Position numbers and translations under genes: made by a program. From contig JAFGIU010000065.1 of assembly GCA_016929445.1 (NCBI GenBank), forward strand, positions 1 through 47,522: a stretch of 47,522 nt of DNA, given 5' to 3'. Below the pieces are notes generated by a model. The model was given only the letters and a program-made list of their open reading frames with translations, did not search any database and was not told the origin of the DNA. Origin of the DNA: Candidatus Omnitrophota bacterium. Its GTDB lineage: Bacteria > Omnitrophota > Gorgyraeia > JAFGIU01. This document shows, in pieces, positions 3,877-30,585 of this stretch (within the stretch, counting starts at the first letter, position 1; each line of letters opens with the position of its first letter).

Positions 3877-3890
3877 TAGCCAACTCCCAT

Positions 3891-3973
3891 CGTCATGGCG
3901 AGGCAGGCACTGCGAGCCGTAGCCGCCTATGTTCCGCAAAGACCGCCACGTCGCTTACGCTCCCCGCGATGAC
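3891..3973. repeat. REP-like imperfect palindrome
   Basis: The left end GTCATGGCGAGG (from 3892) and the right end CCCCGCGATGAC (to 3973) are inverted copies matching at 10 of 12 positions. The interior contains CCGCCACGTCGCTTACGC. This closely resembles a dispersed palindrome seen in many genomes, whose core reads GCCACGTCGCTTCGCTCC. It lies between the flavoprotein and the small membrane protein gene and supplies the last codons and stop of the latter. Confidence 0.6.
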
Positions 3974-12503: not shown

Positions 12504-15101
12504 TCACACAATGATCTCCGAAACTCCTAATTTAAAGAGCTCGTTGCGCCAGGCCTGCTTTAGCTGTTCAGATTCTTCCGGCCCCCAAGACTCCAAGTAT
12601 TGAGTATAGAAGGGATCTCCAACCAAATACGAAAATTCTCCCCCACGCCTAATTCGCTCCCGGTCCAGCAACTCCAACAGTTTGAAAAATCTCTCTTTGC
12701 GTTGTTCCAATTCAACCTGATCCGAACTCCATGTCCACCAATACTCCCAATCAAAATCCCTTACCACACCTTTCCGATCTGCCAAATACTTTTTGTTAGG
12801 AGAAAAACAATTCGCACTGACATGATCCAACACCCCGCTATTTTCACCAAGCCATTCGCAGCCCACTTCAAAATCCGTCTCGGTTTCTGTTGGGTACCCA
12901 TAAATAAGCCAGATCCTGACTCGAACTCCTGCTTTGTGAAACATGTGTATGACTCGGTTCGTCATTTCTAGGTTGGAAGACTTTCCCATATCCTTCTGAA
13001 CCCTTGTAGAAAAGCTTTCCACTCCTAGCTGCACTTCCTCCAACCCCGACTTCACCAGTTTGTAGACAAATTCTTGGGTAAGAAGCCGATCAATCCGTGT
13101 TCCATAAATAGACCAGGAAAACTGCACTGGGGAGCTGCACAATAAGTCAGCGAAAGCATCGAGCTCAGGAAAAGTTAAATGTGATATCAAAGAGTCGTCG
13201 TTCATCATGAATCTAGCGATCCCAAATTCCCTATAGTTTCGCATAACTTCCTCAAAGGCGTTCTTTCCGCTTCTTGTCCGCTGCGTTTTATGGTTCCATT
13301 TGTTCGTACAAAAAGTGCAGTTCAAAATACAACCTCTGGAAAACAGCAGGGGTAGTCCCTTAAACGTGTAGTCATCCAGGCTGAAGTCGCTGAAATCTGG
13401 AAACGGGATTTCATCAATTGGCCCAAGCTGCCCAGAGCCTGAATAAACCGGATTTCCATCCTTGTCCTTGGACCAGACTTGCGAAAGGGTCTGCGGATCT
13501 TCCCCACGATCAATGGCATCAACAATTCTTGGGAGCACAAACTCACCTTCACCCTCAATAACAACATCGGCAAACTCCAGGCAGCATAGGATGTTGTTCA
13601 TATGCCCCTGAACCACGGCAGGCCCGCCGCACACAATCAAGACACCAGGACACTTCTGACGCAGAACCGTGACGACTTTTTCTGTGTTTCGAATATTTGA
13701 GTCATAGATAGTAAAACCCACTACACCTGGACAAGCTTTGGCAATTTCTGTCGCCCACTCTTCAACAAGCTCCGGCCTTGATTCGAGCTCCGCTTCAGCC
13801 ATTTTGTCGCCCAAAGCACAAGCCATCAAAGACCGAAATCGAGGTGTGAAGTCAAAGCATTGGCATTCATATCCCTCTTGAATCAGGCTCGCCTTGAGAT
13901 AAGCCAAACTTAGCGGCGGCGTATTCGTGTCAAACACGGGAACAAGACAGACAGCTGTCCGAATAGTTCTGCCTCCGGCCGGATTCTGTAGATCCCTGCT
14001 TTGAACCTTGATTCCTTCCTTTTTGGCTTGTTTTAGTGTTTGCGCAATCTTCTCATCCGGTAACCAGTGCGCACCTGAAAAGGCATTTTGATAAGGACAG
14101 TCACAGTAGTCACAGCGCGGATAATCTTCCAGAATCCCCTGCAGGTGAGCCACCCTCAGCTCCAAAGCTTTCTTCCCTGTGTAGATTTCGCGTAGCGACT
14201 GCTGATGCACATTGCCGATTTCCAGATCGCACTTCGTGTCAATGCAGCAGGGTGTGACTCGCCCATCCCAGCAAACCGTCAACTGCCAAGCCATGCCGCA
14301 GGGTTTCCTCTCCTGGGGGCCGGCTGGTTTCAATGGACCGGGTGATTCAGGATATTGTTCCATTAGGGTCATGCCCGACGTGTAGCAAGCACCGCGGTGC
14401 AGCTCGTCCGCGTCCTGCTGCCAGTCCGCTCCCACACAGGACTTAAGCCACACATAATCTTTGTGAATATACGGCGACCAGTCCGTACCCACCACATACC
14501 CAATCCCCCGCCCGTCTAACACAGATTCCCAGTGGTTCACAAAGTCAGAGGACCTCCCCACATTTTCCGGCATCACCACCATCTGGTAGATCAGATGGAG
14601 ATTAGGCACGGCTCGCAGAGCACGCGCATCAAGCATGGAATGGATGTTCTCCAGCATCTGCCCGCTGCCCTTCATCCTTTTGACCTGGTTGACCCCGGCC
14701 TCGTCCAGAGCGTCAATCCCATAGTTGATGAAAAACTGGGCCTTGGGGTGTGCCTCGGCCCAGTCCAAGAGAATCTCCACATAGCGGGCATCCAAATGAG
14801 CCCCATTCGTGGCCAAGAGCATTTCGTCCAGGAAATCGTTCTGCATGGCGTACTTCAGCATCTGATCAAATTCGGGATGCAGAAAGGATTCGCCAAACCA
14901 GTACGGCCGGAAATCAATGCGCTCGGTGATCGTGCCGTCCGCCTTCATAGCGGCCAGATCTTCTATAACTCGCTTCCAGATCTCCAACTCCATAAAGCCC
15001 TTGGGCCTTCCGTGCGGGGACTCATCTGTGGTATGCACGCAATACTGACACTTGGCATTGCAGACATCTGTTGGCTCGACATAGACAGTCAATGTGGCCA
15101 T
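12504..15101 (-). CDS. Two-headed radical SAM protein: rSAM/SPASM fused to B12-type rSAM
   Basis: 865 residues with two complete rSAM enzymes. The first has cluster cysteines C14, C18 and C21 (TDVCNAKCQYC), a YWFGES motif in the GGE position, and a SPASM cysteine module at about 268-335 (CGMAW...CWDG...CC...C..CDC). A charged linker (about 340-378) joins it to the second half, which repeats the layout of the protein at 5434-6906: a B12-binding Rossmann domain (about 380-525) and an rSAM core with C591, C595 and C598. SPASM modules hold auxiliary 4Fe-4S clusters; the second half would bind cobalamin if the family rule holds. The ATG shares its A with the stop of the SGNH/TPR gene upstream (TGATG), so the two are translationally coupled. 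Two different radical reactions in one chain suggest successive steps on one substrate. This is a real fusion and not two genes: there is no stop or start near the junction at about 13970. Confidence 0.85.
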   Translation of the reverse strand: MATLTVYVEPTDVCNAKCQYCVHTTDESPHGRPKGFMELEIWKRVIEDLAAMKADGTITERIDFRPYWFGESFLHPEFDQMLKYAMQNDFLDEMLLATNGAHLDARYVEILLDWAEAHPKAQFFINYGIDALDEAGVNQVKRMKGSGQMLENIHSMLDARALRAVPNLHLIYQMVVMPENVGRSSDFVNHWESVLDGRGIGYVVGTDWSPYIHKDYVWLKSCVGADWQQDADELHRGACYTSGMTLMEQYPESPGPLKPAGPQERKPCGMAWQLTVCWDGRVTPCCIDTKCDLEIGNVHQQSLREIYTGKKALELRVAHLQGILEDYPRCDYCDCPYQNAFSGAHWLPDEKIAQTLKQAKKEGIKVQSRDLQNPAGGRTIRTAVCLVPVFDTNTPPLSLAYLKASLIQEGYECQCFDFTPRFRSLMACALGDKMAEAELESRPELVEEWATEIAKACPGVVGFTIYDSNIRNTEKVVTVLRQKCPGVLIVCGGPAVVQGHMNNILCCLEFADVVIEGEGEFVLPRIVDAIDRGEDPQTLSQVWSKDKDGNPVYSGSGQLGPIDEIPFPDFSDFSLDDYTFKGLPLLFSRGCILNCTFCTNKWNHKTQRTRSGKNAFEEVMRNYREFGIARFMMNDDSLISHLTFPELDAFADLLCSSPVQFSWSIYGTRIDRLLTQEFVYKLVKSGLEEVQLGVESFSTRVQKDMGKSSNLEMTNRVIHMFHKAGVRVRIWLIYGYPTETETDFEVGCEWLGENSGVLDHVSANCFSPNKKYLADRKGVVRDFDWEYWWTWSSDQVELEQRKERFFKLLELLDRERIRRGGEFSYLVGDPFYTQYLESWGPEESEQLKQAWRNELFKLGVSEIIV

Positions 15102-16591
15102 CAGCGGCCTCCCCCAAATTCCCCATGTTCAAAGCTCTGCGTCAGATTGTCCCCAACCGCCTGCGCCAGCACCCAGTACCCTCTTTCGGAGCAATGTCCA
15201 TCCTGTCCATATAGCTGTACTTCGGCCTCCTCCTGTTGGGCTTTGGCAAAAGCAAGGCTCGGATGCACTACCGCAACCCCCTTCTTGTCAGCAACTCTGG
15301 AAATAATCGCATTCAAATCCTGCTGAGGTTCCCAGAAGGGGTAGGTTATGAGAAGAGGTTCCGCGCCGGACTGCCGGCAAAGATCCACCATCCCTTTCAG
15401 ATTACTCTCCAGAACTAGCGGAACGTTATGCTGAGCTGATAAGCGCGCCGCGTAAAGTCGCAGGAGCTCTTTCGGATTCCATCCGTAAGTGCGACACATT
15501 TCCTCGAGTTCGCCGATGACCTCCTTGACCTGATCGAGCGTCAATCTCTGGACCATAGATTCATCCAAAACCAAATCCAAGTAATACTCAACGTCCCCCT
15601 CACCCATGCCAAGAATGATGGCTTTAAAAACACCCCGGACCGCCCTGGTGGAATCTTGATAATGTCTGGCCAACAGCACCTCCAAACAATAGGTTTGAGA
15701 GGAACCCGCGTTCATGGCAATCACCTTGGCAAGCCGTGATTCCGCCTCATCAATATCTCCCGCGTCAAAAGCCGCCCAAGCAAGCTCCGTAAGAGGCCTG
15801 GCATCCTTGGGATGATGCCGCAAATATCGTTCGAGTTCCTTCTGCGCATCACTAACCGCGCCCACTTGACGCAGTCCACACGCAATTTCGAAACGCAACG
15901 GATCTTCCTCGCTCCGAAGTGCACTCAAAGCGGAAAACAATGCCTCTCGGGCCCTTCCCATATTGTGCCGCGCCAGCCAATACCAGTACTCGCTCATATG
16001 TGCCGAAACAGTGCCGTCATTGGGCGGCAGTCTCTTATCGGCTTTCTTCTCTTCCTGTTCGGCCAAAACTGGGCTGTGAAAATGAGGCCTCAGCAACTGC
16101 TTTAGGAGATATGCCGTCCTCCACCTCCAAGTCCAACCAGTCGACGTTGCAGTAGTGTTTGTCTGACTCAAGAGTTCCTTCGCTTCCCCAACTGAGGCTC
16201 TACTCCCCTGGTCGTTCAGCCCGGCCAAAATGCAAACAAACTGTGGACTACTTGATGCCAGAGTCCGCCGGAGAGCAACGAGATTTTGCGAGGAGTTCCA
16301 TCCGGGAATGCCAGAATTGACGACTTCCCATTCATGCTCCGGCATTCTTTGGTTCAGAATCTTTTCGAGCTGTGTGGGATAGGCGGACTCCAACTCCTTG
16401 ACTCCAATCCCTCGGGTAAATGAGTCTCCGATGCAGAGAACGGTCCTTCCCCTTTCTGCATCTCGCCCTAAACTTCGCTGTGACAAAACCTGCGACTGGG
16501 CAACAAAGGAAGAAACTTGCAAGGCTAGTTCGAGGACAACGCCGGCGAGCAGAACACCAACCAGGATGCTAAGAAGACGAAAGGGTCGCAA
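15101..16591 (-). CDS. Membrane-anchored SGNH hydrolase with TPR insert
   Basis: 496 residues. One N-terminal membrane helix (about 5-25) precedes an SGNH/GDSL hydrolase whose blocks are split. Block I (IGDSFTRG), block II (NSGIPGWNS) and block III (LAGLND) lie in the first 130 residues; block V (DGHCSERG), with the catalytic Asp and His, is near the C-terminus. Between them is a helical TPR-like region (about 205-370). SGNH enzymes cleave or transfer acyl esters, and in glycan loci they often acetylate or deacetylate the polymer. The active site probably faces the periplasm. The start is TTG 16591, supported by GGGAGGG 8 bases upstream. It overlaps the rSAM gene before it by 23 bases and is coupled to the two-headed rSAM gene after it. 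A paralogue lies at 39438-40715. Confidence 0.8.
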   Translation of the reverse strand: MRPFRLLSILVGVLLAGVVLELALQVSSFVAQSQVLSQRSLGRDAERGRTVLCIGDSFTRGIGVKELESAYPTQLEKILNQRMPEHEWEVVNSGIPGWNSSQNLVALRRTLASSSPQFVCILAGLNDQGSRASVGEAKELLSQTNTTATSTGWTWRWRTAYLLKQLLRPHFHSPVLAEQEEKKADKRLPPNDGTVSAHMSEYWYWLARHNMGRAREALFSALSALRSEEDPLRFEIACGLRQVGAVSDAQKELERYLRHHPKDARPLTELAWAAFDAGDIDEAESRLAKVIAMNAGSSQTYCLEVLLARHYQDSTRAVRGVFKAIILGMGEGDVEYYLDLVLDESMVQRLTLDQVKEVIGELEEMCRTYGWNPKELLRLYAARLSAQHNVPLVLESNLKGMVDLCRQSGAEPLLITYPFWEPQQDLNAIISRVADKKGVAVVHPSLAFAKAQQEEAEVQLYGQDGHCSERGYWVLAQAVGDNLTQSFEHGEFGGGR

Positions 16592-17894: not shown

Positions 17895-19028
17895 GTGGAA
17901 ATCACCTTTTCCGTTGAACTGACTGACCTGTGCAATGCCCGCTGCAATTACTGCATTATCGGGACCGGCCAAGCCCCGCATGGCACGCGCCTTGGTTACT
18001 TGAGCCTCGAAGACTTTCACCGCCTATTCGAACGCTTCGATGAATTTCTCGCTGATGCGGCCTGTACACCGGCCGAACACCCGGAAGTCTACCTGCGCCT
18101 CTGCGGCATTGGAGAGCCGACTCTCCACCGGGACTTTCTGGAATTCTTTGAGATTGCCATGGCCCAGCCGCATATTCGCCAGCTCGCCCTTGTCACCAAC
18201 GGATCCTATCTCCCCAAAGAGCGCGTTGACGCTATGGCCGAAGTCATCCGGCGCCACCCTGAAGTCACGGTGGAAGTCCTGCTCGGACTGGACGCCGTGG
18301 ACACCAGGGCCCAGCGCGCAATCAAGAAGGTTTCGAATATCTGGAAGGTCAACTCCGATGTGGAATATTTTCTGGGTTTGAAACGCCGGCACGGACTCGA
18401 CAATCTGAAGTTCGTACTCCAACTCGTTGTGACCGACGAAAATCTCGACCAGGTGATTCCCTTCTGCCGTTTCTGGTCCCATGCGCTGCAGGAACGCGAC
18501 TTTTCCTTCACACTCACCGGAGATTGGGGATATCTGGACCACATCCAGGACTATGACGCCTTCATCTGGATCAAGTGCCGCGATGCCGGCCCTGCGGAAC
18601 AGCCTCGTTTCGACGAGCTTCACCGCTATGCCCTCGCGCAAATGGGAATCCCGCAGGCAGGCAACAAACCTTCTGCGCTTCCCCAAACCGTTCAGCAGCG
18701 TCACAGCGAGACAAACTCGTTGTCAAACTCAATCAAGATTTGCGGCGTCTTCTGGTATGGCATTAATGTGAACGCGGCCGGCGATATCAGCCCCTGCTGC
18801 ATAGACAACGCCTTTGAACTCAAGATCGGAAATATCCGCGAAGCCCCTCTACCGGAAATTTACCGCGGCGAGATCATGCGCCGTATGCGATTGGCCCATA
18901 TTCAAGGGGACTTTTCGGAAGTGCCGCTTTGCGCCGCATGCACCTCAGTCCACCGGTACAAGTATGTCTCGCGCGAGGCAGTCGAGCGCTATCTAAGCGC
19001 AGTGGGCGAGGAGCTTTCCGTCCCATGA
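17895..19028 (+). CDS. Radical SAM/SPASM protein
   Basis: 377 residues in the normal order: the rSAM core first, with C13, C17 and C20 (TDLCNARCNYC), then LCGIGEPTLH as the SAM-binding GEP motif and LVTNGSYL. The C-terminal SPASM module contains ICGVFWYG, DISPCCIDN, KIGN and a final CAAC. It is paralogous to the 16569 protein and to the N-terminal half of the two-headed protein. The start is GTG 17895 with only a weak GCAGG upstream; there is no better candidate, because the first strand (EITFSVELT) begins at once. Its stop overlaps the next start in an ATGA arrangement, making it the first gene of a six-gene coupled rSAM operon. It may supply a conventional rSAM activity alongside the five SPASM-first paralogues. 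Confidence 0.85.
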   Translation: MEITFSVELTDLCNARCNYCIIGTGQAPHGTRLGYLSLEDFHRLFERFDEFLADAACTPAEHPEVYLRLCGIGEPTLHRDFLEFFEIAMAQPHIRQLALVTNGSYLPKERVDAMAEVIRRHPEVTVEVLLGLDAVDTRAQRAIKKVSNIWKVNSDVEYFLGLKRRHGLDNLKFVLQLVVTDENLDQVIPFCRFWSHALQERDFSFTLTGDWGYLDHIQDYDAFIWIKCRDAGPAEQPRFDELHRYALAQMGIPQAGNKPSALPQTVQQRHSETNSLSNSIKICGVFWYGINVNAAGDISPCCIDNAFELKIGNIREAPLPEIYRGEIMRRMRLAHIQGDFSEVPLCAACTSVHRYKYVSREAVERYLSAVGEELSVP

Positions 19029-20146
19029 CAACGCTTCCGGATTGGGCCCCCCAGTACGATCTCGACCGTCCTCTGCACAACAAAGCTATGCGGAGTGTCT
19101 GTTACGCTCCGTTTACCACTCTGGATTTCGGACCCTTTGGAGACGTGATCGTCTGCTGCGCCAATCATGCTCAAAGGGTAGGCAATGTCCGGGAGCAAAG
19201 TTTGCGCGAAATCTGGCACAGCAAAGCAATGGAGGAACTCCGGGATGCGCTGACACAATACGATTTTTCCAAAGGCTGCGATCGCTGCGCATGGTATGTG
19301 GCCCAAGGCGATTTTAAGACCAGTTTTTCCAAGAAGGACGACGTGTACGACATTGGGCCTGAATGGATCAAGGGGCCTCTCAAAATGGACTTTCGATTGA
19401 GCAATATCTGCAACTTTGCCTGCATCATGTGCCACGGCGACTGCAGTTCCCGCATCCGCAAAGAAGTGCAGAAACTCCCGCCTATTGAGAGCCCCTATGC
19501 GGAGCCCTTTTTTTCACAGCTCAAGGAGTTTCTGCCCCGGCTGCAGTACAGCTGGTTCACCGGGGGCGAGCCTTTTCTGGTCGAAGATAATTATCGAATC
19601 TGGGACATGATGATCGAGTGTGCGCCCCAAATCCGCCTGCGCATTACCACCAATGGCTCGATTCTCACGCCTCGGGTCCAGGAGATTCTTGAAAATCTAA
19701 CGTTGGTTGATTTGTGCGTTTCCATTGACGGGGCCACCAAGCAAACTTTCGAGAAGGTGCGACGCGGGGCGCATTTTGAAAAAGTGGTGGAGCATCTGGA
19801 CTACTTTTCCGAATATTGCCGGCGCACCGGTGCCAATCTACGATTCAGCACTTGCGGCCTGCTGCAGAATTGGCATGAGCTGCCGGATATTTTTTTACTC
19901 GCCGCACGTTATGGCGCCAGTGTGTGGATGAACACGGTATTGCCCGGAGGCAACCATCACGCGGGCCCGGTCAGCATTCATGACGCTCCGCCGCGGCTTA
20001 AAAAGCGCATTTCCGAATTCCTGGCATGGAGCTACCCCCAGATCCAGGGCAGCATCGACGACCACAGCGACGGGAACTATCAGATGCTCATGAATACGCT
20101 GGGTGCGCCATTGGAGCCAGACGAGGCCGGAGCGCTGATTCTATGA
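19025..20146 (+). CDS. SPASM-first radical SAM protein, array copy 1
   Basis: 373 residues. A SPASM/twitch-like cysteine module occupies about 20-95: C26 in SVCYAPF, C44-C45 in VIVCCANH, GN at 53-54, then C85 and C88 in GCDRCAW. Only after it comes the rSAM core with C129, C133 and C136 (NICNFACIMC), TGGEPF for SAM, ITTNGS and SIDGATK. The usual rSAM/SPASM order is therefore reversed. Proteins with an N-terminal twitch module before the rSAM domain are known but poorly characterised. I chose ATG 19025, which overlaps the preceding stop as ATGA; an upstream in-frame start at 18929 would lie deep in the previous gene. Catalytic motifs all look intact. The substrate is unknown. Confidence 0.85.
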   Translation: MTTLPDWAPQYDLDRPLHNKAMRSVCYAPFTTLDFGPFGDVIVCCANHAQRVGNVREQSLREIWHSKAMEELRDALTQYDFSKGCDRCAWYVAQGDFKTSFSKKDDVYDIGPEWIKGPLKMDFRLSNICNFACIMCHGDCSSRIRKEVQKLPPIESPYAEPFFSQLKEFLPRLQYSWFTGGEPFLVEDNYRIWDMMIECAPQIRLRITTNGSILTPRVQEILENLTLVDLCVSIDGATKQTFEKVRRGAHFEKVVEHLDYFSEYCRRTGANLRFSTCGLLQNWHELPDIFLLAARYGASVWMNTVLPGGNHHAGPVSIHDAPPRLKKRISEFLAWSYPQIQGSIDDHSDGNYQMLMNTLGAPLEPDEAGALIL

Positions 20147-21282
20147 CTCTGCTAAAGACTAATTACATCCAAGATTGGATTTTAAAGTACGACTCCACGC
20201 GACCATTGCATAATAAAGCCTTTCGCTCTGCCTGCTACGCACCCTTTGTGAATTTGGATTTTTCACCCAACGGCGAGGTTTTAGTGTGCTGCGTCAATAC
20301 CCGTTATGTTGTGGGACGTGTGCCCGATCAGACTATCAGTGAAATTTGGAGCGCTGAGCCCATCCAGCTCCTGCGCCAAGCTCTGAAGCAGTATGATTTT
20401 TCTTTGGATTGCGAACGCTGCCGGTGGCAGGTGGAGTTGGGAAACCTAAACGGCGTCTTTGCGAGAAGGGACGACCGTTTCCGTGTTACGGAAGAATGGC
20501 CCAAGGGCCCTCAAAGAATGGACTTCCGTCTGAGTAATATCTGCAACTATGCCTGCGTCATGTGCAATGGCGACTACTCTTCGGTTTTAAGGGCGCAGGA
20601 AGGCAGGCGGCCCTTTCCCAAAGTCTATGGAGACCCCTTTTTCAATCAGCTGAGGGATTTTATTCCCAATTTGAAATTCGCTATGTTCGGTGGAGGAGAG
20701 CCTTTTCTCATACCCGAACACCACAAGGTTTGGGACTTGTTCATTGAATCCGGACCGCACATCAAGTGCACAATCAACACTAACGCTTCGATTCTAAATG
20801 ACACGGTCTGGCACTATCTGGAAAACATCCATTTTGAGAATATCGGCGTTTCCTTTGACGGCGCTACGGCTCACACCTTTGAGGCCGTGCGCCAGAAAGC
20901 TTCCTTTGAGCAAGTGTATTCCAACTTGAAGCAAATCAAGGCTCATGCTAACAAAAAGCGGCGTAAAGTTCACTTGGCCGTGTGCGTGACCCGGCAGAAC
21001 TGGATGGAGTTTCCGGACATCGTGCGCTTGGGGGAAGACTTGGGCTGTCCGATTAACGTCAACCTGGTCCACCATCCACCCGATTGCAGTCTTTATGAAC
21101 TCCCTGCAGACCAGATCCAAGAGGTTCACACCTATTTGGATCTGCATTTCAAGCGCCTTCAAAACCGCATCAGTCAGGAAAGCGCTGCGCATTACGGACT
21201 GCTTCTGGAAAGCCTTCAGGGCGCTTCCACTCAAAATTCACACCGGCCGTTTTTCTATAAACCTATCGCGGAGAAACAATAG
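20143..21282 (+). CDS. SPASM-first radical SAM protein, array copy 2
   Basis: 379 residues with the same reversed layout. The N-terminal module has C31 (SACYAPF), C49-C50 (VLVCCVN) and C90/C93 (DCERCRW). The rSAM cysteines are C134, C138 and C141 (NICNYACVMC), followed by GGGEPF, INTNAS and SFDGATA. ATG 20143 overlaps the preceding stop (ATGA), so translation is coupled. Copies 1, 2 and 5 keep every cysteine and the SAM-binding motif. Divergence in the C-terminal third, where this copy has HHPPDCSLYELP, suggests different substrates or partners rather than simple redundancy. Confidence 0.85.
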   Translation: MTLLKTNYIQDWILKYDSTRPLHNKAFRSACYAPFVNLDFSPNGEVLVCCVNTRYVVGRVPDQTISEIWSAEPIQLLRQALKQYDFSLDCERCRWQVELGNLNGVFARRDDRFRVTEEWPKGPQRMDFRLSNICNYACVMCNGDYSSVLRAQEGRRPFPKVYGDPFFNQLRDFIPNLKFAMFGGGEPFLIPEHHKVWDLFIESGPHIKCTINTNASILNDTVWHYLENIHFENIGVSFDGATAHTFEAVRQKASFEQVYSNLKQIKAHANKKRRKVHLAVCVTRQNWMEFPDIVRLGEDLGCPINVNLVHHPPDCSLYELPADQIQEVHTYLDLHFKRLQNRISQESAAHYGLLLESLQGASTQNSHRPFFYKPIAEKQ

Positions 21283-22403
21283 TGAACCTGGCAACGCGTG
21301 TGGCATACGATCAAAATCGCAATTTTGACGGCAAGGCCTTCCGCGCAGCCTGCTATGCACCCTTCACAACTTTGGAATTCAACGTCAACGGAGAAGTGGT
21401 TGCTTGCTGGAAAAGCGCCCGCTACGTGTTGGGCCGGATTGGAGAGTCTTCGCTGGATGAGATTTGGAAAGGAGAGGCTCTGCGCAACATGCGAACCCGG
21501 CTTCTGAATTACGACTTTCCGGAAGAATGCGAGTGGTGCGCCTGGCAGATGAGAGCCGGGGATCTAACGGATATTCTCGCCCGCCGGTACGATTTTCTCG
21601 ACGTGGAGCCGGAATCGCAATGGCCCCAGCAGTTCTACTTCAATTTAGGGAATGAATGCAACTACGCCTGTATCATGTGTAGTGGTGAGGTCTCCTCAGC
21701 CTATCGCAAACATATAGAAGGAAGGCCGCGGAAACCCATCATTTATACGAACCAATTCTTTGAGCAGCTTGACAGGTTTCTTCCGCACATCCGTCATGCC
21801 AGTTTTTTCGGAGGGGAGCCCTTTCTAACACCTGGCAACTATCGCGTCTGGGATCGACTCGTGGAGATAAACCCTGCTGCACGGATTCATATCAACACCA
21901 ACGGGTCTGTTCTCAGCCAACGTGTAAAAGACTACCTTGGCCGGCTGAACGTGGGAAGTATGGCCGTTTCTATTGACGGCGCCACCAAAGAAACCTTTGA
22001 GCGCGTGCGCCGGTTTAGCAAATATGAGGTAGTCATGAAGAACTTGGAGTATTTCTCTTGCCAGGCCAAGGCCTTAGGATGGGATTTCCAGATCGTTGCC
22101 TGCGTTTTGCGTGAGAACTTCCATGAGCTGCCCCAAATCTACGAACTCGCGGTGCGATTGGGAGCACGAGTCACTTTGAACATGGTCACTTATCCGGAGG
22201 AGCACAGTGTCTACACCTTGCCACGTGACGAACGGCTGCACATCCACGTATACCTTCATAGAGCATACACACGACTAAGAGAGCAACTAAACCCGGCAAG
22301 TCAAATCTCATACGAAGGTCTCCTAAAGAGACTTAGCGGAGAAGAATCATGGAGCCTTGGGCCCCACAGTGGATCACTGAATACGACCGCAACCGCGATC
22401 TAA
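21282..22403 (+). CDS. SPASM-first radical SAM protein, array copy 3
   Basis: 373 residues. The rSAM cysteines are intact (C126, C130 and C133, NECNYACIMC), as are FGGEPF, INTNGS and SIDGATK. In the N-terminal module the CC pair of the other copies is reduced to a single cysteine (VVACWKS, C42-W43), while C24, C83 and C86 are kept, so its auxiliary cluster may be altered. GTG 21282 shares its G with the previous TAG stop (TAGTG). The shorter N-terminus lacks the W-I/D-x-D segment seen in the other copies. The C-terminus runs 55 bases into the next gene, where a different frame encodes that gene's start. Confidence 0.85.
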   Translation: MNLATRVAYDQNRNFDGKAFRAACYAPFTTLEFNVNGEVVACWKSARYVLGRIGESSLDEIWKGEALRNMRTRLLNYDFPEECEWCAWQMRAGDLTDILARRYDFLDVEPESQWPQQFYFNLGNECNYACIMCSGEVSSAYRKHIEGRPRKPIIYTNQFFEQLDRFLPHIRHASFFGGEPFLTPGNYRVWDRLVEINPAARIHINTNGSVLSQRVKDYLGRLNVGSMAVSIDGATKETFERVRRFSKYEVVMKNLEYFSCQAKALGWDFQIVACVLRENFHELPQIYELAVRLGARVTLNMVTYPEEHSVYTLPRDERLHIHVYLHRAYTRLREQLNPASQISYEGLLKRLSGEESWSLGPHSGSLNTTATAI

Positions 22404-23443
22404 GCCAGAAACCCTTTCGCGCGGCTTGCTATGCGCCGTTTGTCTCGCTCGAGTTCGGGCCGCGCGGGGATGTCCGTGTCTGCAGTCTGCGCCGCGGCGC
22501 TGGCGTCGGGGATATCCGGTACCAGACAATCCAGCAGGTCTGGAACGGTTTCAAGATGGACCAGCTCCGCACCTACCTCAAACACTACGACCTCTCCAGC
22601 GGTTGCGACCGTTGTCGCTGGTATATTGATCAAGGCTCCTCGGACATCCCGGCAAAACGCAGCTACGATTGGATCCCCATTCCTTCCGGCTCCCTCATGC
22701 CGCGCCGTTTTACCTTTCGTTTGGCCAATACTTGCAAAGTAAGGTCTGTGCTGTGTGCCCCATATTCGTGTTCGGTCTTATCGGAGGACGCCGGGGAGAA
22801 GCCGGATCCGCGCAATCCCTACGGAGAGTCGTTTTTTCAGGAGCTTCGGGAACTGTTGCCCAATACGCTCCAATGTGATTTCCAGGGTGGGGACGCCTTT
22901 CTCATCGAACCTCACTACCGCATCTGGGACCTGCTCATCTCTCAGCGATATGAAGCATCCATCAGCGCATTTACTTATGGAACCCATCTGGACAAGCGCG
23001 TCCAGTCGTATTTATCGGCCCTAAACTTTTCCGATCTGGTAGTTCCGTTTTTTTCGCTCGACAAAACCCGCTTTGAAACTCTCTGTCAAGGCGCCCGCAT
23101 GGAAGAGGTGACCGCCACGCTCCGTCTTTTTGCCGAGTATGCTCAAGAGCGCCCTAACTCCAGAAAGCTGTATCTCCAGTTCCCCATTACTCGAAACACT
23201 TGGAGCGAATTCGCAGGCATGCTCGAATTTGCGGAGCCTCTCAACGCCCAGCTGGAAACTTACGTTGTAAGAACACCCGGGTCCCTTTGTGCACTGGATC
23301 TTCCGGCGGCAGACCGAATGGAGATGCTCCAAGTCCTCGCGAAGGACTTGGAGCGCCTCGAGGGCAGAGTGCGCCCGAGTAATCTATCCCGCTTAAAGGA
23401 GTTTATCCAATTGTTGGAACACTCTGCGAAGAAGGTTGGCTGA
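22349..23443 (+). CDS. Degenerate radical SAM paralogue, array copy 4 (probable pseudoenzyme)
   Basis: 364 residues, full length and clearly homologous to its neighbours, but the catalytic motifs are eroded. The cluster motif is C129-x3-S133-x2-C136 (NTCKVRSVLC) in place of CxxxCxxC. The SAM motif GGEPF reads GGDAF, TNGS reads TYGT, and SIDGATK reads FFSLDKTR. The N-terminal CC pair reads CS (VRVCSLRR), although C27, C86 and C89 remain. It should not bind the 4Fe-4S cluster or cleave SAM in the normal way. The frame is uninterrupted and the gene sits in phase within the operon, so it is probably expressed and may serve as a partner or scaffold for the active copies. ATG 22349 follows GGAGAAG. 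Confidence 0.8.
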   Translation: MEPWAPQWITEYDRNRDLSQKPFRAACYAPFVSLEFGPRGDVRVCSLRRGAGVGDIRYQTIQQVWNGFKMDQLRTYLKHYDLSSGCDRCRWYIDQGSSDIPAKRSYDWIPIPSGSLMPRRFTFRLANTCKVRSVLCAPYSCSVLSEDAGEKPDPRNPYGESFFQELRELLPNTLQCDFQGGDAFLIEPHYRIWDLLISQRYEASISAFTYGTHLDKRVQSYLSALNFSDLVVPFFSLDKTRFETLCQGARMEEVTATLRLFAEYAQERPNSRKLYLQFPITRNTWSEFAGMLEFAEPLNAQLETYVVRTPGSLCALDLPAADRMEMLQVLAKDLERLEGRVRPSNLSRLKEFIQLLEHSAKKVG

Positions 23444-23444
23444 T

Positions 23445-24575
23445 ATGGAATCCTGGATCCTCGATTTTGATAGGCGTCGCGACTTTTCAGCAGTCGGGTT
23501 TCGATCCGCGTGCTACGCGCCCTTTGTCAGCATGAATTTCACGCCTTGGGGGACTGTGCAGGTTTGCTGCGAGAACAGTGACTACATTATTGGCAATGTG
23601 GCCGAGGACACATTGATGGATCTGTGGAATGGCCCTGCCATCAACCAAATCCGTTCGCACTTGGTTCGATATGAATATGGGATGGGGTGCGAAGGATGCG
23701 CCAGGCTGGCAAGGATGGGGGCCTATCCCTATTCTTTCCACTACGAACCCGCCAATGCCCCCACGCTCGTCCCTAAGTGGCCATATATAATGGAATTCCG
23801 GCTCACCAATGATTGTAACTTCGCCTGCATTATGTGCAGCGGGAGTTACTCTTCACAAATAAGAGCCAAGAGGGACAAACTGCCTCCTCTTCCCCGCGCT
23901 TACGGAGACCGCTTCTTCGAGGAATTGGAAGAATTTGTGCCTCATTTGAGACATACCGTTTTTGCCGGCGGCGAACCCTTGATTATCCCCGAGCATTTTC
24001 GTGTCTGGGACATCATGCTTCGCACTAATCCTAAGTGCACCGTGACGATCAGCACCAACGGGTCCGTGGTCAGTGGTAAGGCCCTCGACTATATGCAGCA
24101 GCTTCATGTCAATCACTTGGATGTCTCTGTGGACGGAGCCACCAAGAAGACCTTTGAGGCCATACGTCCCCGATCCTGTTTTGAAAAAGTCATGGCAAAC
24201 TTGGGGCCGCTTTCAAAAATTCCTAAGCGAATTAATGACATTTTCTCCTTGACTCTGTGCGCGATGCCCCAGAATTTTTTTGAGATCAAAGATATCTTCC
24301 TGCTTGCCGAAGAATACGGAGCGCACGTGTATATTAACCTTGTGAGAGTGCCCAATTCTTGCAGTCTCGCATCGCTTGCCCCGAAAGAGCTTGAAACTGT
24401 TTTCCGCACACTGGATTCGGATTTCTCCTCGATCGCGCCCACCCTAAGCCCATTCAACAAAGAGCGCTTTTTGGAATTGCTGAGCGCGGTCAAGCACATG
24501 AGGGCAGGGCAAAACCCGGTAGGCCTGAGTGCCGGTGTCCCGGATACGCCCACACCCGCGCCCGTGCTACCGTGA
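23445..24575 (+). CDS. SPASM-first radical SAM protein, array copy 5
   Basis: 376 residues with complete motifs. The N-terminal module has C23 (SACYAPF), C41-C42 (VQVCCEN), GN and C82/C85 (GCEGCAR). The rSAM cysteines are C124, C128 and C131 (NDCNFACIMC), followed by AGGEPL, ISTNGS and SVDGATK. ATG 23445 lies one base after the preceding stop (TGA-T-ATG) with GAAGG 9 bases upstream; a TTG at 23436 is less likely. The C-terminus ends in a Pro-rich tail (TPTPAPVLP). It closes the coupled six-gene operon. A promoter-like sequence follows, so the next gene may be separately expressed. Confidence 0.85.
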   Translation: MESWILDFDRRRDFSAVGFRSACYAPFVSMNFTPWGTVQVCCENSDYIIGNVAEDTLMDLWNGPAINQIRSHLVRYEYGMGCEGCARLARMGAYPYSFHYEPANAPTLVPKWPYIMEFRLTNDCNFACIMCSGSYSSQIRAKRDKLPPLPRAYGDRFFEELEEFVPHLRHTVFAGGEPLIIPEHFRVWDIMLRTNPKCTVTISTNGSVVSGKALDYMQQLHVNHLDVSVDGATKKTFEAIRPRSCFEKVMANLGPLSKIPKRINDIFSLTLCAMPQNFFEIKDIFLLAEEYGAHVYINLVRVPNSCSLASLAPKELETVFRTLDSDFSSIAPTLSPFNKERFLELLSAVKHMRAGQNPVGLSAGVPDTPTPAPVLP

Positions 24576-24593
24576 GGCCGGATCCGGCAGGCC

Positions 24594-24622
24594 TTGTGCG
24601 CCCTGGGGCGATCCCTTATGAT
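24594..24622 (+). promoter_or_regulatory. Candidate promoter for the glycan assembly/export operon
   Basis: TTGTGC (24594-24599), a 17-base spacer and TATGAT (24617-24622). The start near 24629 precedes ATG 24668 by about 40 bases. This supports that ATG over the GTG at 24572, which lies before the promoter. Confidence 0.45.
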
Positions 24623-24667
24623 GTTAGCCGTTCTAGCCTGAACATCGGAGAAATCCCTAGACCATCC

Positions 24668-27160
24668 ATGAAGAACAGCCACCCTCACCCCCAAGTTGCC
24701 GTATCCGTCATTAACTATAATGGGGTCAAGCATTTGGATAAATGTCTGGCTTCATTGGAGGCTTTGAATTATCCACGGAGCCGCCTCCGGCTAAGCCTGG
24801 TGGACAACGGATCCACCGACACCTCCCTTGAATTTGTTCAGACCCGCTACCCGAATGTCCGAATCCTCCAAAACGACCAAAACAATTTTTCCCGCGCTCT
24901 CAATTTGGCGACCCGGGAATGCCCGGGAGAATATGTGGTCTTTCTCAACAATGACACCACGGTAGAGCGCTCCTGGCTCAAGGAGCTGGTCAAGGCCGCC
25001 CAAGGCCGGCCTGAAGTCGCGGGGGTGGGCAGCAAAATCCTGCTGTCTGATGGCCGCATCAACAGCGCAGGCCATCAGGAACTCCCTTCTTTTTATTGGG
25101 AGGACCGGGGATTTGAAGAAAAGGACATCGGCCAATACGACGAGGTCACTGAAGTCTCAAGCCTATCTGGTTGCGCCGCAATGTACCGTAAAGAATATTT
25201 GGAGGAATTGGGCGGTTTTGACGAAGACTTCAATATCTTCCTCGAGGATATCGAAATCGGGTTACGCTGTCGCAAGAAAGGCTGGAAGCTGCTTTACGTC
25301 CCGTCCAGCGTCGTCCACCATCACTTCCACGGCACAGTGAGCGGTCAATTCGCAGATACCATGGTGGAACGAAATCGCCTGCTATTGGTGGCCAAGCACT
25401 ATCCGGAAAGACTCGGGGAGGTGCTCCCCGGGAACACGCTTCTCACGGACGGCTCCCACCTCCCTTATGATGTGGCCTACGACCATGTTGTCCAGTGCAT
25501 TCAGAAATTCCTCGCCTCCCACGACCGGGAAACAATCTTAAGAACCTCGCCCTCGCTGGCTGCAGGGATTCGCAGGAGTCTTATCTGGCAACGCAAGATG
25601 CTTCGAAAGACTTTTCGTGAACACTTCTCCTTCCGTTATAGCGCGGGCTCGAACGGTAAGGACTCCGCGGAGGAACGGGACCGGATAATCACCCAACTCG
25701 TCGAGGCTAAAGAACGCCTGGCACGAGAACTACAGGATTCACAGAACTCGATCCAATTCATACGCAATGAGCTATATTCACGAGACATTCAGCTTGCAGA
25801 AGAACGGGCGCGCGCCAATGAGCGCGCCCAACGAATAGACGAGCTCCGGTCGGAACACAACGAACTATCCCAGCGTCTGAAAACCTCTCTACAGGAGACA
25901 GAGGACCGCCACCGCTACGCAAAATCCCAGGAAGAGCGCTTGGAACTGGAATTAAAAAAGCTCTGGACCAACGAGCAGGAACTGGCAGGGCTCCGGGTCC
26001 TGCTGAACGAGCGGGAAGCACAGCTCGAAGAGGCGCGCGCGCAGACTCGAGAGATGGCGGATTTTCGACATGAACTGACCCGCAGGGCCGCAGAAACTGA
26101 GAAGCTTGAATCGACACTAAACGAAACAAATCGGCGGCTCCAAGAAACTTCTACCGAACAGGAGCAGTTGCAACAGAGACTCGAAGCAGGCATCCGCCAA
26201 GTCTCCCGGCTCAACCTCGCCCTGGCCGACAAGGTGCAGGAAATCAAAAAAATCCGGGAAGCTTACGACCACAAGAGTGCACAGCTCCGGGATAAGGATT
26301 CGGAATACTCCCAGCTCCGGATTCACTGCCAGAACCTGAGCGACGCCAACAAGAAGTGGGCCGACCTTGCAGAGCAAGTCAACGAAGAAAAAGAGGGTCT
26401 GCGTATCCACCTGGAGGAGGAGGTATCAAACCGGCAAAAGCAACTAGATGAGGTGCGCCGGGAGCTGGGTTCGGCCGGAGCCAATGTCGCAGAGCTAAAA
26501 GCGCAGATCGAAGGGCTGCAGGTTTTCTACAAAACAAATACTTACCGGCACCTCGTGATCCCCGTATGGAAGACAGCCAACTTCTTCAAGCAGATGGCCA
26601 GGCTCTTCCTCCGTTTTGAAATTTTCGCCGCATGGGCCCGGGCCAGGCAACAGGTGGTAGTGCTCAAGCCGAAACAGGTAAGCCCGGGCCAGGCCGAGGC
26701 CGCGCTGCGGCGTATCGAGGGTCTTTACCCCGGAATCCCCATCGAAGTGATCACCCAAATTTACGGCGAAGAGATCGACTGGGTCGAACACAGCCGCAGG
26801 CCGAACCGGCGATACCGGATTTACATCCACGAGAAAAACCCGCTCAATCTGTTTCGCCTAATCCTTCTCAGTTTGCGCTGGCAATGCCGTCCCTCTTTCC
26901 AAAAAGCAATCGTTCTCTGTCACCCGGCAATTCCCGGCGCCTGCCGCAAACAGAAATTCCTGGGCGCTTGCCTGAGCGGCTCGCGCAGCACCGAAGTCTA
27001 CTTCCCCGAGAACGATCATTCCGAACCGCTCGTCATTCGCCGGGTGATCGGGCACTTACTCTGGTTCGGATTGGCCGGCCTGGCCGTATCTCTGCTGCTC
27101 GTTCCACGCACCCTTATCCGCAAGATCCGGCTCCGGCGTCACAGAAGTTCAAACGCATGA
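24668..27160 (+). CDS. GT2 glycosyltransferase with long coiled coil and C-terminal membrane helix
   Basis: 830 residues. The GT2 domain (about 8-260) opens VAVSVINYNGVKHL, has LVDNGSTD, LNNDTT at the metal/donor site, SGCAAMYR and the acceptor-side LEDIEIGLR, as in rhamnosyl- or N-acetylglucosaminyl-like enzymes. Residues about 333-618 are an almost unbroken Glu/Arg/Leu/Gln-rich coiled coil. The remaining 200 residues are a globular region ending in one membrane helix (VIGHLLWFGLAGLAVSLLL) and a basic tail. The coiled coil would extend roughly 40 nm if fully helical, so it could space or count chain length, as coiled coils do in O9a-type O-antigen systems. That is inference. An in-frame GTG exists at 24572. 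The stop overlaps the next start (ATGA). Confidence 0.85.
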   Translation: MKNSHPHPQVAVSVINYNGVKHLDKCLASLEALNYPRSRLRLSLVDNGSTDTSLEFVQTRYPNVRILQNDQNNFSRALNLATRECPGEYVVFLNNDTTVERSWLKELVKAAQGRPEVAGVGSKILLSDGRINSAGHQELPSFYWEDRGFEEKDIGQYDEVTEVSSLSGCAAMYRKEYLEELGGFDEDFNIFLEDIEIGLRCRKKGWKLLYVPSSVVHHHFHGTVSGQFADTMVERNRLLLVAKHYPERLGEVLPGNTLLTDGSHLPYDVAYDHVVQCIQKFLASHDRETILRTSPSLAAGIRRSLIWQRKMLRKTFREHFSFRYSAGSNGKDSAEERDRIITQLVEAKERLARELQDSQNSIQFIRNELYSRDIQLAEERARANERAQRIDELRSEHNELSQRLKTSLQETEDRHRYAKSQEERLELELKKLWTNEQELAGLRVLLNEREAQLEEARAQTREMADFRHELTRRAAETEKLESTLNETNRRLQETSTEQEQLQQRLEAGIRQVSRLNLALADKVQEIKKIREAYDHKSAQLRDKDSEYSQLRIHCQNLSDANKKWADLAEQVNEEKEGLRIHLEEEVSNRQKQLDEVRRELGSAGANVAELKAQIEGLQVFYKTNTYRHLVIPVWKTANFFKQMARLFLRFEIFAAWARARQQVVVLKPKQVSPGQAEAALRRIEGLYPGIPIEVITQIYGEEIDWVEHSRRPNRRYRIYIHEKNPLNLFRLILLSLRWQCRPSFQKAIVLCHPAIPGACRKQKFLGACLSGSRSTEVYFPENDHSEPLVIRRVIGHLLWFGLAGLAVSLLLVPRTLIRKIRLRRHRSSNA

Positions 27161-28338
27161 ACCTGGCTTTCCTTTCCAAAGATTACCCTCCGCAACAGGT
27201 CGGCGGTGTCGGCACTTATGTAACGGAGATGTCCCGCCTTCTGGCCCGTAAGGGACACCAAGTATTCGTCATCTCCCAAGGCGACTCCGTGTATGAAGAA
27301 CTACTTGTTCCCGGCGGACAAAGCATCCGGGTAATCCGGGTGCAGCCGGCCCGGCTTTCGTTCATGGACTTAGTCCGGGATTCCCATCCGGGACTTGTCG
27401 AAAGATTGGAATATTCCTGGTCGGTATCCCAAGCACTCAAGAGATTGCACAAGGACATTAGGCTGGATGTCGTCGAGGCCTCCGAGGCCCGAGCCGAAGG
27501 GTTCTGGTATTACCTGACTCACCGGAATCCTCCTCTGCTGATCAAGCTGCACACGCCCGAGTATGTGGCCGTAAAGCTCAATCAAACTCACCGTCTTCCG
27601 TATTGGCGCGGAGCTCATTCCTTGGAAAAGCATTGGATCTTCAGCGCGCACCAGCTGGTTGGCATCACTCAAGCGGTGGTTGATAAGGTTGCCGAGAGTT
27701 ACCGGGTGAGACTTCAAGGAATCCCTCTGGTTCGCAATCCCATTGATCTGGACTTCTTCTCCCCCAACGGAGTCGCCCCCTCGGATAGCCAGCCGGAAAT
27801 TCTATATGTGGGCCGCTTGGAGTTCCGCAAAGGGGTTCAGGTCCTGGCCCGGGCAATTCCCAAAGTTCTCTCACAGTGCCCAACCGCAACATTCACTTTC
27901 CTAGGCGATCCCTGCGGCATGGAATCCTACGTTTCTGAAACTCTCGCGCCCTATATGGAACGCGGGGCAGTCCAGTGGCTTCGCGGCATACCCCGCGAGG
28001 AATTGCTTGGTTACTATCGCCGCGCGACCTTGGTCGTCATCCCCTCTCTTTGGGAAAACAGCCCCTACACCTGCCTCGAGGCCATGAGCTGCGGCAAACC
28101 TGTTGTGTGTTCCAGCGGCGGCGGACTCTCGGAGCTTGCGGAGCACGGCGTAAACGGATGGCTCACGGCTCCGGGCTCCAGCGCCGAGCTGGCCCAAGGC
28201 ATCATTCATTTACTGGAACACCCCGATACCCGGATGCGCTTGGGTCGCAATGCCCGCAGTCACATCATCAAGCAGTACGACGAAAAAAGCATTTATGAGC
28301 AAGCATTGGCCGTCTATGAAAATACAGCGACCCGGTAA
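27157..28338 (+). CDS. GT4 family glycosyltransferase
   Basis: 393 residues with the GT-B fold. The N-domain opens MNLAFLSKDYPPQQVGGVGTYV with the Gly-rich loop. The C-domain has ILYVGRLEFRKGVQVL and the nucleotide-sugar motif SLWENSPYTCLEAMSCGKPVV, containing the E-x7-E pair of retaining GT4 enzymes. It would add a sugar to the growing glycan at the cytoplasmic membrane face. ATG 27157 overlaps the previous stop (ATGA); an upstream in-frame extension lies inside the coiled-coil gene in another frame and is not credible. The last 23 bases overlap the rSAM gene that follows. Confidence 0.85.
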   Translation: MNLAFLSKDYPPQQVGGVGTYVTEMSRLLARKGHQVFVISQGDSVYEELLVPGGQSIRVIRVQPARLSFMDLVRDSHPGLVERLEYSWSVSQALKRLHKDIRLDVVEASEARAEGFWYYLTHRNPPLLIKLHTPEYVAVKLNQTHRLPYWRGAHSLEKHWIFSAHQLVGITQAVVDKVAESYRVRLQGIPLVRNPIDLDFFSPNGVAPSDSQPEILYVGRLEFRKGVQVLARAIPKVLSQCPTATFTFLGDPCGMESYVSETLAPYMERGAVQWLRGIPREELLGYYRRATLVVIPSLWENSPYTCLEAMSCGKPVVCSSGGGLSELAEHGVNGWLTAPGSSAELAQGIIHLLEHPDTRMRLGRNARSHIIKQYDEKSIYEQALAVYENTATR

Positions 28339-29329
28339 CGGGCTTCATTTAGACCGGCCGCCGCGCCGGTTCAGGCTTCCGCGCCCCCAGGTGCTTGTCC
28401 TGTTCACAAGCTATCAGTGCGATGCTCGCTGCGCCATGTGCTCCACCTGGGTCAAACAGAAGTCCGAACCCTCAATTTCTCATGAACAAATCGAGAAGCT
28501 CTTCAACGACCCTCTGTTGAAGTCCTCTTTGGAAATTCTCAATCTCACGGGCGGCGAACCCACACTCAATCCGGATCTGGTATCGAATGTGAAGACCGCG
28601 GTGGAGACATGCTCCCGATTGCGCCGGGTCGACCTGCCCACGAATGGAATGAACACCGGTCAAGTCGTCGATCAAATAGAGCGCCTTGCGGCAGCGATCG
28701 CCGATTGCGAAGTGCATCTCGGTATCACTGTTTCCATGGATGGGCTCGGGCCGGTTCATGAAGCTGTGCGCAACCGCAAGGGCGTGTTTCCTCAAGTGGA
28801 GCGGACTCTGATGGAAGTCCAGGAACTGACGCGCGCCTATCCCTTCATGAGCGTGGGCATCAATATGACAGTGGGGAACCAAAACGCGGACGAGCTGTTC
28901 CGTATGCGCAACTACGCAAGAAAAAGGAATATCGGGATCAATTTCACGCCCGCGGCAATTTCGGAAATCGGAGTGGAAAGCGCGCTGATGAAAGATGACT
29001 TCCTGCCCTCCGAAGTTCAGCGGGCCAAGATTGCAGACTTTTTTGATATCTTGGAGGAGTCGGGAGAGATGTTGGCCAACCACGCTCAATTTGCGGCAAA
29101 TTGGCTCAGAACCGGTCGCCGCACTTTGGATTGCAGCTTTCGCCAGGGGCGCAACTGCCTTTTAGAACCGGACGGCAGTCTGTATTTGTGCGGCAACTTC
29201 AAAGAATTCAAGCTGGGCAATGTCTGGGAAACATCTTTTACCCGGGCATGGCGCAATATGCGCCGGATTCCCTCGACAGCCTGGAGAAAATGTGTGGGAT
29301 GCGAGAGCAACTGTTATCTAAACCCATAA
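28316..29329 (+). CDS. Radical SAM protein with SPASM-like tail, inside the glycan operon
   Basis: 337 residues. The cluster motif is C35, C39 and C42 (YQCDARCAMC), followed by LTGGEPTLN for SAM and PTNGMNT. The C-terminal tail has CSF..GRNCLLEPDGSLYLCGN, KLGN and CVGCESNC, a SPASM-like set of cysteines for auxiliary clusters. It belongs to a different branch from the array proteins: its order is normal and the tail differs. It lies between two GT4 genes of the operon that ends in the Wzm/Wzt exporter. Its product therefore probably acts on a sugar, carrier or glycan, although a protein substrate cannot be excluded. ATG 28316 lies 23 bases inside the preceding gene; an upstream start at 28250 would overlap more. 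Confidence 0.85.
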   Translation: MKIQRPGNGLHLDRPPRRFRLPRPQVLVLFTSYQCDARCAMCSTWVKQKSEPSISHEQIEKLFNDPLLKSSLEILNLTGGEPTLNPDLVSNVKTAVETCSRLRRVDLPTNGMNTGQVVDQIERLAAAIADCEVHLGITVSMDGLGPVHEAVRNRKGVFPQVERTLMEVQELTRAYPFMSVGINMTVGNQNADELFRMRNYARKRNIGINFTPAAISEIGVESALMKDDFLPSEVQRAKIADFFDILEESGEMLANHAQFAANWLRTGRRTLDCSFRQGRNCLLEPDGSLYLCGNFKEFKLGNVWETSFTRAWRNMRRIPSTAWRKCVGCESNCYLNP

Positions 29330-29355
29330 ATACGCAACGACAGACCTCTCCCCGG

Positions 29356-30585
29356 ATGCGGATCTGTGTGATTTCGCGGGAATACCCTCCCGAGACTTGT
29401 TGGGGCGGCATTGGCGTATACAGCACTCTGCTTTCAAAAGAACTGGCTCTGCGGGGACACCGGGTCCATGTGATTTGCCAAACTCTGGGCCAAGAGCGCA
29501 CTGTGGAACGGGGAAATCTTACGGTACACAAAATTCGGAACAGCTACTATTTTTTTCCGCGTATTGCCACAACGGAATTTGCGCAGCGGATCAACTACAT
29601 CCGGGCGGTTCGCAGAAGGTTTCTCAAAATCCACTCCCAGCAGCCTTTTGACGTGGTTGAGGGCCCTAACTTTTCCGCTGAAGGGCTGGGAGTTAGTTTT
29701 ATCAAAGAGGTCCCTTTGGTGACTCGACTTCACAGTTCTCTAAACGAAGTCGCCAAGGCCTATGGCAAACGCCCCACATGGGATTCTCAACTCAGCGCCT
29801 CCCTTGAGAACTGGACTCTTTATAGAAGCCAAGCCGTGACTTGCTCCACGCGCGCGCATGCCGAATTGGTCGGCCAAACGGCCGGCTACAATCCCGCCAG
29901 CATTCATATCCTTCCGCTCGGCGTACCCATCCCCGAGGATACCCGCCCTCCTTCATCTGAGAAAGCAAAGGAGCCGCTTGTGCTTTTCCTGGGGCGTTTG
30001 GAACCTCGAAAAGGCGTGGATACTTTGGTACGCGCAATTCCTCAGGTTCTTGAGAAGGCTCCAAAGACAAGCTTCCTTTTCGCAGGACGCGATATCTATA
30101 TCAACGGCGAAACCCATTCTGTGATCGGACCGCCCCGCCTGAGCTACAAACGGCATTTGGAGAGACTGCTTCCGGATTCCGCGCGCAATCGAGTTACGTT
30201 TCTCGGCCATGTGAGCGATATTCAGCGCCGCGAACTGTTGGCAGACTGCGATCTCTTTGTCGCGCCCTCCACTTATGAGAGCTGCGGCTTCGTATATCTG
30301 GAAGCGATGTCCTATGCGCGGCCCGTAATCGGCTGTAACGTCGGCGGAGTCCCTGAAGTCGTCAAGCACGGAGAAACCGGACTCCTGGTGCCTCCCTCGG
30401 ATCCCGGAGCTCTCGCCCGGGCCATTCTCGATGTGCTTAGCCGTCCCGGTCAAACCTCGAGGATGGGCGCCCAAGCACGGGCGTGGGTGGAGACTCATTT
30501 CTCTTTGGATCAAATGGTTACCCGTACAGAGCAATTGTATGCGTCGCTAGTCAAAGATTTTTCCGCAAGAAAGAAAGCTCGATGA
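29356..30585 (+). CDS. GT4 family glycosyltransferase
   Basis: 409 residues, GT-B fold. It opens MRICVISREYPPETCWGGIGVY; the C-domain has VLFLGRLEPRKGVDTLVRA and the donor motif STYESCGFVYLEAMSYARPVIG. It is most like the 38257 protein: both have EYPPET.GGIG openings and GRLEPRKG, and both carry an insert with RDIYING or QETFLGAGE before a SYK segment, so they are paralogues, probably with related specificities. The start is uncertain. ATG 29356 begins at the first strand but has no Shine-Dalgarno; an in-frame ATG lies about 20 codons upstream. The stop overlaps the ABC permease start (ATGA). Confidence 0.85.
   Translation: MRICVISREYPPETCWGGIGVYSTLLSKELALRGHRVHVICQTLGQERTVERGNLTVHKIRNSYYFFPRIATTEFAQRINYIRAVRRRFLKIHSQQPFDVVEGPNFSAEGLGVSFIKEVPLVTRLHSSLNEVAKAYGKRPTWDSQLSASLENWTLYRSQAVTCSTRAHAELVGQTAGYNPASIHILPLGVPIPEDTRPPSSEKAKEPLVLFLGRLEPRKGVDTLVRAIPQVLEKAPKTSFLFAGRDIYINGETHSVIGPPRLSYKRHLERLLPDSARNRVTFLGHVSDIQRRELLADCDLFVAPSTYESCGFVYLEAMSYARPVIGCNVGGVPEVVKHGETGLLVPPSDPGALARAILDVLSRPGQTSRMGAQARAWVETHFSLDQMVTRTEQLYASLVKDFSARKKAR

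Follow-up and report, generated by a model that had tools for sequence, protein, structure and literature searches.

The proteins described here are nearest to NCBIfam NF033640 (N_Twi_rSAM, twitch domain-containing radical SAM protein), a family with an N-terminal twitch domain ahead of the radical S-adenosylmethionine (SAM) domain, which has been named and has no assigned function. BtrN, a twitch radical SAM dehydrogenase of butirosin biosynthesis, has an auxiliary cluster with four cysteine ligands and carries out a two-electron oxidation (PMC9012708). Pseudo-radical-SAM/SPASM proteins such as TIGR04347 would, by their family name, have a radical SAM fold whose core cluster is not functional and, in addition, a domain for an auxiliary cluster. 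In phages, a pelagimyophage host recognition cluster is reported to carry cassettes of radical SAM genes together with glycosyltransferases (PMC7029224), and one T4-like genome is reported to have 12 radical SAM genes (PMC5332604). The present analysis concerns a tandem array of five genes, at 19025-24575 on the plus strand of a 47,522-nucleotide stretch of DNA (hereafter the window; contig JAFGIU010000065.1, GCA_016929445.1) from Candidatus Omnitrophota bacterium, which is uncultured. All five copies have NF033640 as their best match, and one of them has lost its catalytic core. The array is genuine, and it is an unusual arrangement for a family that is known but uncharacterised; neither a description of such an array nor a characterised member of the N-twitch family was found in the open-licence papers searched.

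The open reading frames of the array lie head to tail, and each overlaps or abuts the next. Their coordinates and strand are those given in an earlier note on this DNA:

19025-20146, plus strand: copy 1, N-twitch radical SAM protein, 373 amino acids, core CNFACIMC intact
20143-21282, plus strand: copy 2, N-twitch radical SAM protein, 379 amino acids, core CNYACVMC intact
21282-22403, plus strand: copy 3, N-twitch radical SAM protein, 373 amino acids, GTG start, core CNYACIMC intact
22349-23443, plus strand: copy 4, predicted pseudo-radical-SAM paralogue, 364 amino acids, core C-x3-S-x2-C
23445-24575, plus strand: copy 5, N-twitch radical SAM protein, 376 amino acids, core CNFACIMC intact

The junctions within the array, namely ATGA at 20143, TAGTG at 21280-21284, a 55-base overlap at 22349-22403 and TGA-T-ATG at 23441-23447, also agree with that note. 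The ATGA at 19025 is present as well, but it is the overlap of copy 1 with another radical SAM gene, 17895-19028, which the note had missed; six radical SAM-related genes are therefore coupled. Upstream of each start is a purine-rich stretch that resembles a Shine-Dalgarno sequence. In pairwise comparison the copies are 27-42% identical, far beyond chance, and they are the only strong matches to the family within their own genome. Identity is 35-53% in the twitch region versus 16-29% after residue 300, which bears out the C-terminal divergence remarked on earlier. At 22349-22403, the C-terminal tail of copy 3 overprints the conserved start of copy 4, from which it follows that copy 3 probably gained this tail by loss of an earlier stop.

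The copies share with NF033640 the order of twitch and radical SAM domains over a full-length match. Against the curated whole-protein cut-off of 170 bits, copies 2 and 3 score above (174.8 and 173.3 bits), copies 1 and 5 just under (164.6 and 159.8) and copy 4 far under (83.7), although copy 4 also aligns over its full length. The family definition includes neither a five-copy operon nor a member missing the catalytic core, and the array has both. Pfam places SPASM N-terminal of Radical_SAM in copies 1, 2, 3 and 5 (residues 26-88 then 125-291 in copy 1, and 23-85 then 120-258 in copy 5), and finds SPASM without Radical_SAM in copy 4. The N-terminal position of the SPASM-like module is thus real, but the reversed order cannot be called new, as NF033640 already names this architecture. 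The module contains four conserved cysteines, C-x17-C-x40-C-x2-C, that are invariant in 5/5 copies and 44/44 aligned homologues (an alignment of 44 rows). Because there are no further SPASM cysteines, it is assigned as a predicted one-cluster twitch rather than a full SPASM domain. Other proposed signatures are less general: the CC pair occurs in copies 1, 2 and 5 but is CW in copy 3 and CS in copy 4, and GN is present in copies 1 and 5 but not in copies 2, 3 and 4. In the PDB, the twitch matches that of BtrN best by sequence. Like the array proteins, BtrN has a single auxiliary cluster site with four cysteines, and its context is carbohydrate-like; its twitch, however, comes after the barrel, whereas that of the array proteins comes before it.

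The CxxxCxxC core that ligates the SAM-cleaving 4Fe-4S cluster had been ascribed to all five copies; only four have it. Copy 4 reads C-KVR-S-VL-C. It retains the twitch cysteines C27, C45, C86 and C89, which are invariant in the 44-row alignment, as are a GG pair and the outer two of the three core cysteines. Copy 4 is the sole exception of the 44 at N130, C133 (the middle core cysteine), E182, N210 and S233, and lacks several residues of the SAM site. Among 394 viral matches, no exception occurs at any of the three core cysteines or at three of the twitch cysteines; the fourth twitch cysteine, which sits in the CC pair and is of uncertain register, is present in 92%. A loss of the catalytic cysteine like that in copy 4 occurs in 0/394. 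As the only loss among 44 homologues, with none among the viral matches, copy 4 is classified from its sequence as a pseudo-radical-SAM paralogue. A sequencing error was considered as the cause and rejected, since many barrel residues are changed in frame. TIGR04347 and similar proteins are comparable to copy 4, a likeness drawn by family name; copy 4 differs in being an N-twitch paralogue within a tandem array and does not match TIGR04347.

The loss is selective. Among columns invariant in the other four copies, copy 4 keeps 16/16 in the twitch versus 24/50 in the barrel (Fisher p 8e-5). Hydrophobic barrel columns are retained at 39/45, versus 40-42/45 in the four apparently active copies, and the twitch is 35-49% identical to those of the active copies, much as these are among themselves. 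AlphaFold2 predicts a confident full-length fold for copy 4 (predicted local distance difference test, pLDDT, 88.2; predicted template modelling score, pTM, 0.87), as it does for copy 2 (pLDDT 90.4, pTM 0.88). By comparison with its paralogues, copy 4 would be a protein without catalytic activity in which both the fold and the auxiliary cluster site remain constrained. This pattern suggests a non-catalytic partner subunit, which may act as a scaffold or relay electrons. The point of most interest in the locus, and one that the earlier note did not report, is that copy 4 has selectively lost its catalytic cluster; a copy with only the auxiliary site is a natural test of the role of the auxiliary cluster, which a review calls largely an open question (PMC9012708).

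The array lies inside a same-strand run, 17895-33064, that has no gap of more than 60 bases. The other genes of the run are:

17895-19028, plus strand: radical SAM/SPASM protein of conventional order, first gene of the run, 377 amino acids, GTG start (Pfam Radical_SAM 8-187, SPASM 283-350)
24572-27160, plus strand: family 2 glycosyltransferase whose C-terminal region is long and charged (Pfam Glycos_transf_2); the GTG start at 24572 overlaps the copy 5 stop, and an alternative ATG is at 24668
27157-28338, plus strand: GT4-type glycosyltransferase, ATG start at 27157 (Pfam Glycos_transf_1 and Glyco_transf_4)
28250-29329, plus strand: further radical SAM/SPASM protein (Pfam Radical_SAM and SPASM)
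29101-30585, plus strand: GT4-type glycosyltransferase, start uncertain (Pfam Glycos_transf_1 and Glyco_transf_4)
30582-31424, plus strand: Wzm-like ATP-binding cassette (ABC)-2 permease of a polysaccharide exporter (Pfam ABC2_membrane)
31424-33064, plus strand: ABC ATPase with the Wzt C-terminal carbohydrate-binding domain, last gene of the co-directional run (Pfam ABC_tran and Wzt_C)

By Pfam, a Wzm permease, a Wzt ATPase and glycosyltransferases thus occur in one run, the composition of an ABC-transporter-dependent glycan export locus. Wzm/Wzt loci for O-antigen or capsule likewise group glycosyltransferases, an ABC-2 permease and a Wzt_C ATPase in one run.

The earlier note spoke of a conserved five-member array. 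No such array was found in 58 genomes of relatives, 383 of the phylum and 383 of the class, which are overlapping samples with no genome nearer than the class. Weaker matches are present in four genomes of the class. The strongest, in genome G374, covers both domains and is near genes for a conventional radical SAM/SPASM protein, a B12-binding radical SAM protein, NeuB, cytidylyltransferases and a DegT aminotransferase. A search of plasmids yielded one good relative, a single gene (K5658_RS21510) on a plasmid of Methylomagnum ishizawai RS11D-Pr, a cultured carrier, whose product is 34% identical and is the nearest relative. This gene sits with homologues of the window's asnB (37%), GT4 glycosyltransferase (31%), ABC permease (33%) and Wzt (32%). 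The window therefore shares a glycan setting with the Methylomagnum plasmid and the G374 locus, as had been anticipated. The note would have abandoned its proposal if the array were absent from all relatives or if copies fell in unrelated contexts without shared neighbours; the array is absent from the sampled relatives, but its homologues do share neighbours. A scan of a genome collection with copy 4 returned no relative, and the same scan with the four active copies returned only loci of Elusimicrobia and Prolixibacteraceae, both distant.

N-twitch relatives are abundant in viral contigs, where at least 586 pattern-matched stretches encode relatives of the phage group. Tandem arrays in phages from marine and fresh water (IMG/VR; Vibrio phage K566) comprise 2-5 neighbouring N-twitch genes, and glycosyltransferases or sugar-nucleotide enzymes are often encoded close by. 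Of 119 viral loci with N-twitch genes, 70 have at least three copies in a row and 12 have five, in counts that are not dereplicated. The neighbour clusters with Pfam support include NAD-sugar epimerases (24 loci), UDP-glucose/GDP-mannose dehydrogenases (21) and carbamoyltransferases (18), and in Vibrio phage K566 the N-twitch genes are interleaved with GT8 genes. Loci L033, L041 and L048 keep position-specific orthologues in the tree, by which their arrays are judged to be old and ordered. The phage copies differ from those of the window in forming separate clades and in retaining the catalytic cysteines throughout (394/394). In the tree, the five copies of the window cluster with the gene of the Methylomagnum plasmid (99/94) and are separated from those of phages. 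Judged by this placement, the window array is a separate expansion, and a phage origin was rejected. A viral scan with the Methylomagnum protein found nothing. The branching order among the five copies is not resolved by the tree, and no order of duplication is claimed; copy 4 has the longest branch of the five. The recurrence of tandem arrays near sugar genes suggests that bacteria as well as phages use radical chemistry on cell-surface glycans in an undescribed way. A 669-amino-acid protein family (L039:3356-5362 and relatives) that lacks Pfam and PHROGs matches was also observed in 83 of the 120 viral loci fetched with N-twitch genes, and is a candidate partner of the N-twitch proteins.

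The reading that best accommodates the locus, to which we assign a probability of about one half, is that the array encodes glycan-tailoring radical enzymes and one non-catalytic partner within an exporter-dependent surface glycan operon. The order of genes and domains, the cysteine pattern, the loss in copy 4 and the genomic context are observed; from these we infer the substrate, chemistry, pairing and export as follows. The array would have arisen by tandem expansion of N-terminal-twitch radical SAM proteins within this lineage. Most probably, the barrel clusters of copies 1, 2, 3 and 5 cleave SAM, and these copies would then abstract hydrogen from a nucleotide-activated or lipid-linked sugar. 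The four-cysteine cluster of the twitch probably accepts the substrate electron, and the outcome would be a BtrN-like oxidation at C-OH or a related tailoring step. As the C-terminal third differs between copies, the copies may have different target residues or positions. Copy 4, predicted to be unable to bind a normal SAM-cleaving cluster, keeps its fold and auxiliary site and is most likely a non-catalytic partner of a neighbour. The Wzm/Wzt pair would then export the tailored glycan. The best fold match is BlsE, and DesII is also among the matches. Both enzymes act on sugars. Several observations weigh against this proposal. The PDB fold matches cover mainly the barrel (template modelling score, TM, up to ~0.47), so that BlsE and DesII say little about substrate; the Elusimicrobia homologue lies outside any glycan locus; and many neighbours of the phage genes have no Pfam match. 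Longer PDB fold alignments have root mean square deviations above 11, and the whole-length fold matches are predicted viral proteins (TM up to 0.77).

A division of labour among the copies, as the earlier note envisaged, fits their divergent C-terminal parts and the position-specific phage orthologues. The same observations would be expected of specialised enzymes that share only an operon. It is conceivable, and the strongest of the competing explanations, that the five are independent single-chain paralogues, each with its own sugar residue, that form no complex, copy 4 having been recruited elsewhere, for example for binding of a sugar or glycosyltransferase. That relatives occur as single genes in other glycan loci also favours independence. 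The tight overlaps of the five genes and the twitch site kept by copy 4 fit a shared assembly better, without proving it. A multi-subunit complex is thus possible, and copy 4 raises its likelihood. A more specific version of such a complex, a hetero-oligomeric machine in which copy 4, having only the auxiliary cluster, would relay electrons to or from catalytic copies that tailor successive glycan positions, is speculative. Electrons have been shown to pass from one radical SAM protein to another, separate one in vitro (PMC10470005), and with this precedent a paralogue suited to such transfer would be of interest.

It is improbable that the array acts instead in the maturation of a ribosomal peptide or surface protein. 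Peptides are frequent substrates of SPASM/twitch radical SAM enzymes, several NCBIfam peptide maturases match the barrel weakly, and SuiB and SkfB are among the fold matches. However, no convincing small open reading frame for a precursor was found either inside the array or in the one gap, of 129 bases, that precedes it, in agreement with the earlier note, although a precursor could be encoded elsewhere in the genome. The neighbours are glycosyltransferases and a polysaccharide exporter, and the Pfam-annotated genes include no peptide-recognition domain or peptidase. Least credible is that copy 4 is a decaying pseudogene in a functionally four-membered array: its lost catalytic cysteine, many lost barrel invariants and long branch would agree with decay, but it has 364 open codons behind a Shine-Dalgarno-like stretch, a complete set of twitch invariants, most of its hydrophobic barrel columns and a confident predicted fold, and decay would not be expected to spare one domain.

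Several other features of the window were observed. Twelve radical SAM-related proteins are encoded between 5434 and 45660, an unusual density for 47 kb: the five array copies, three radical SAM/SPASM proteins, two B12-binding radical SAM proteins and two fusions. The usual O-antigen locus is far from having about a dozen radical SAM proteins in such a length. One fusion (12504-15101, minus strand) has radical SAM/SPASM followed by B12-binding radical SAM; the other (42856-45660, minus strand) has the opposite order. The fusion halves resemble separate genes of the window; for example, the B12 half of 12504-15101 is 42% identical to 5434-6906. Two related GDSL/SGNH hydrolases with tetratricopeptide repeats (15101-16591 and 39438-40739, both minus strand) flank the radical SAM and glycosyltransferase genes. 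An Rfam search of the window gave no match. A flavin adenine dinucleotide-linked oxidase matching the cytokinin dehydrogenase binding domain (2500-3939, minus strand) is unexpected in a glycan locus. Finally, a protein resembling tRNA-queuosine alpha-mannosyltransferase (45751-46851, plus strand; Pfam QTMAN_N, E-value 3.8e-58) is encoded at the edge of the glycan locus.

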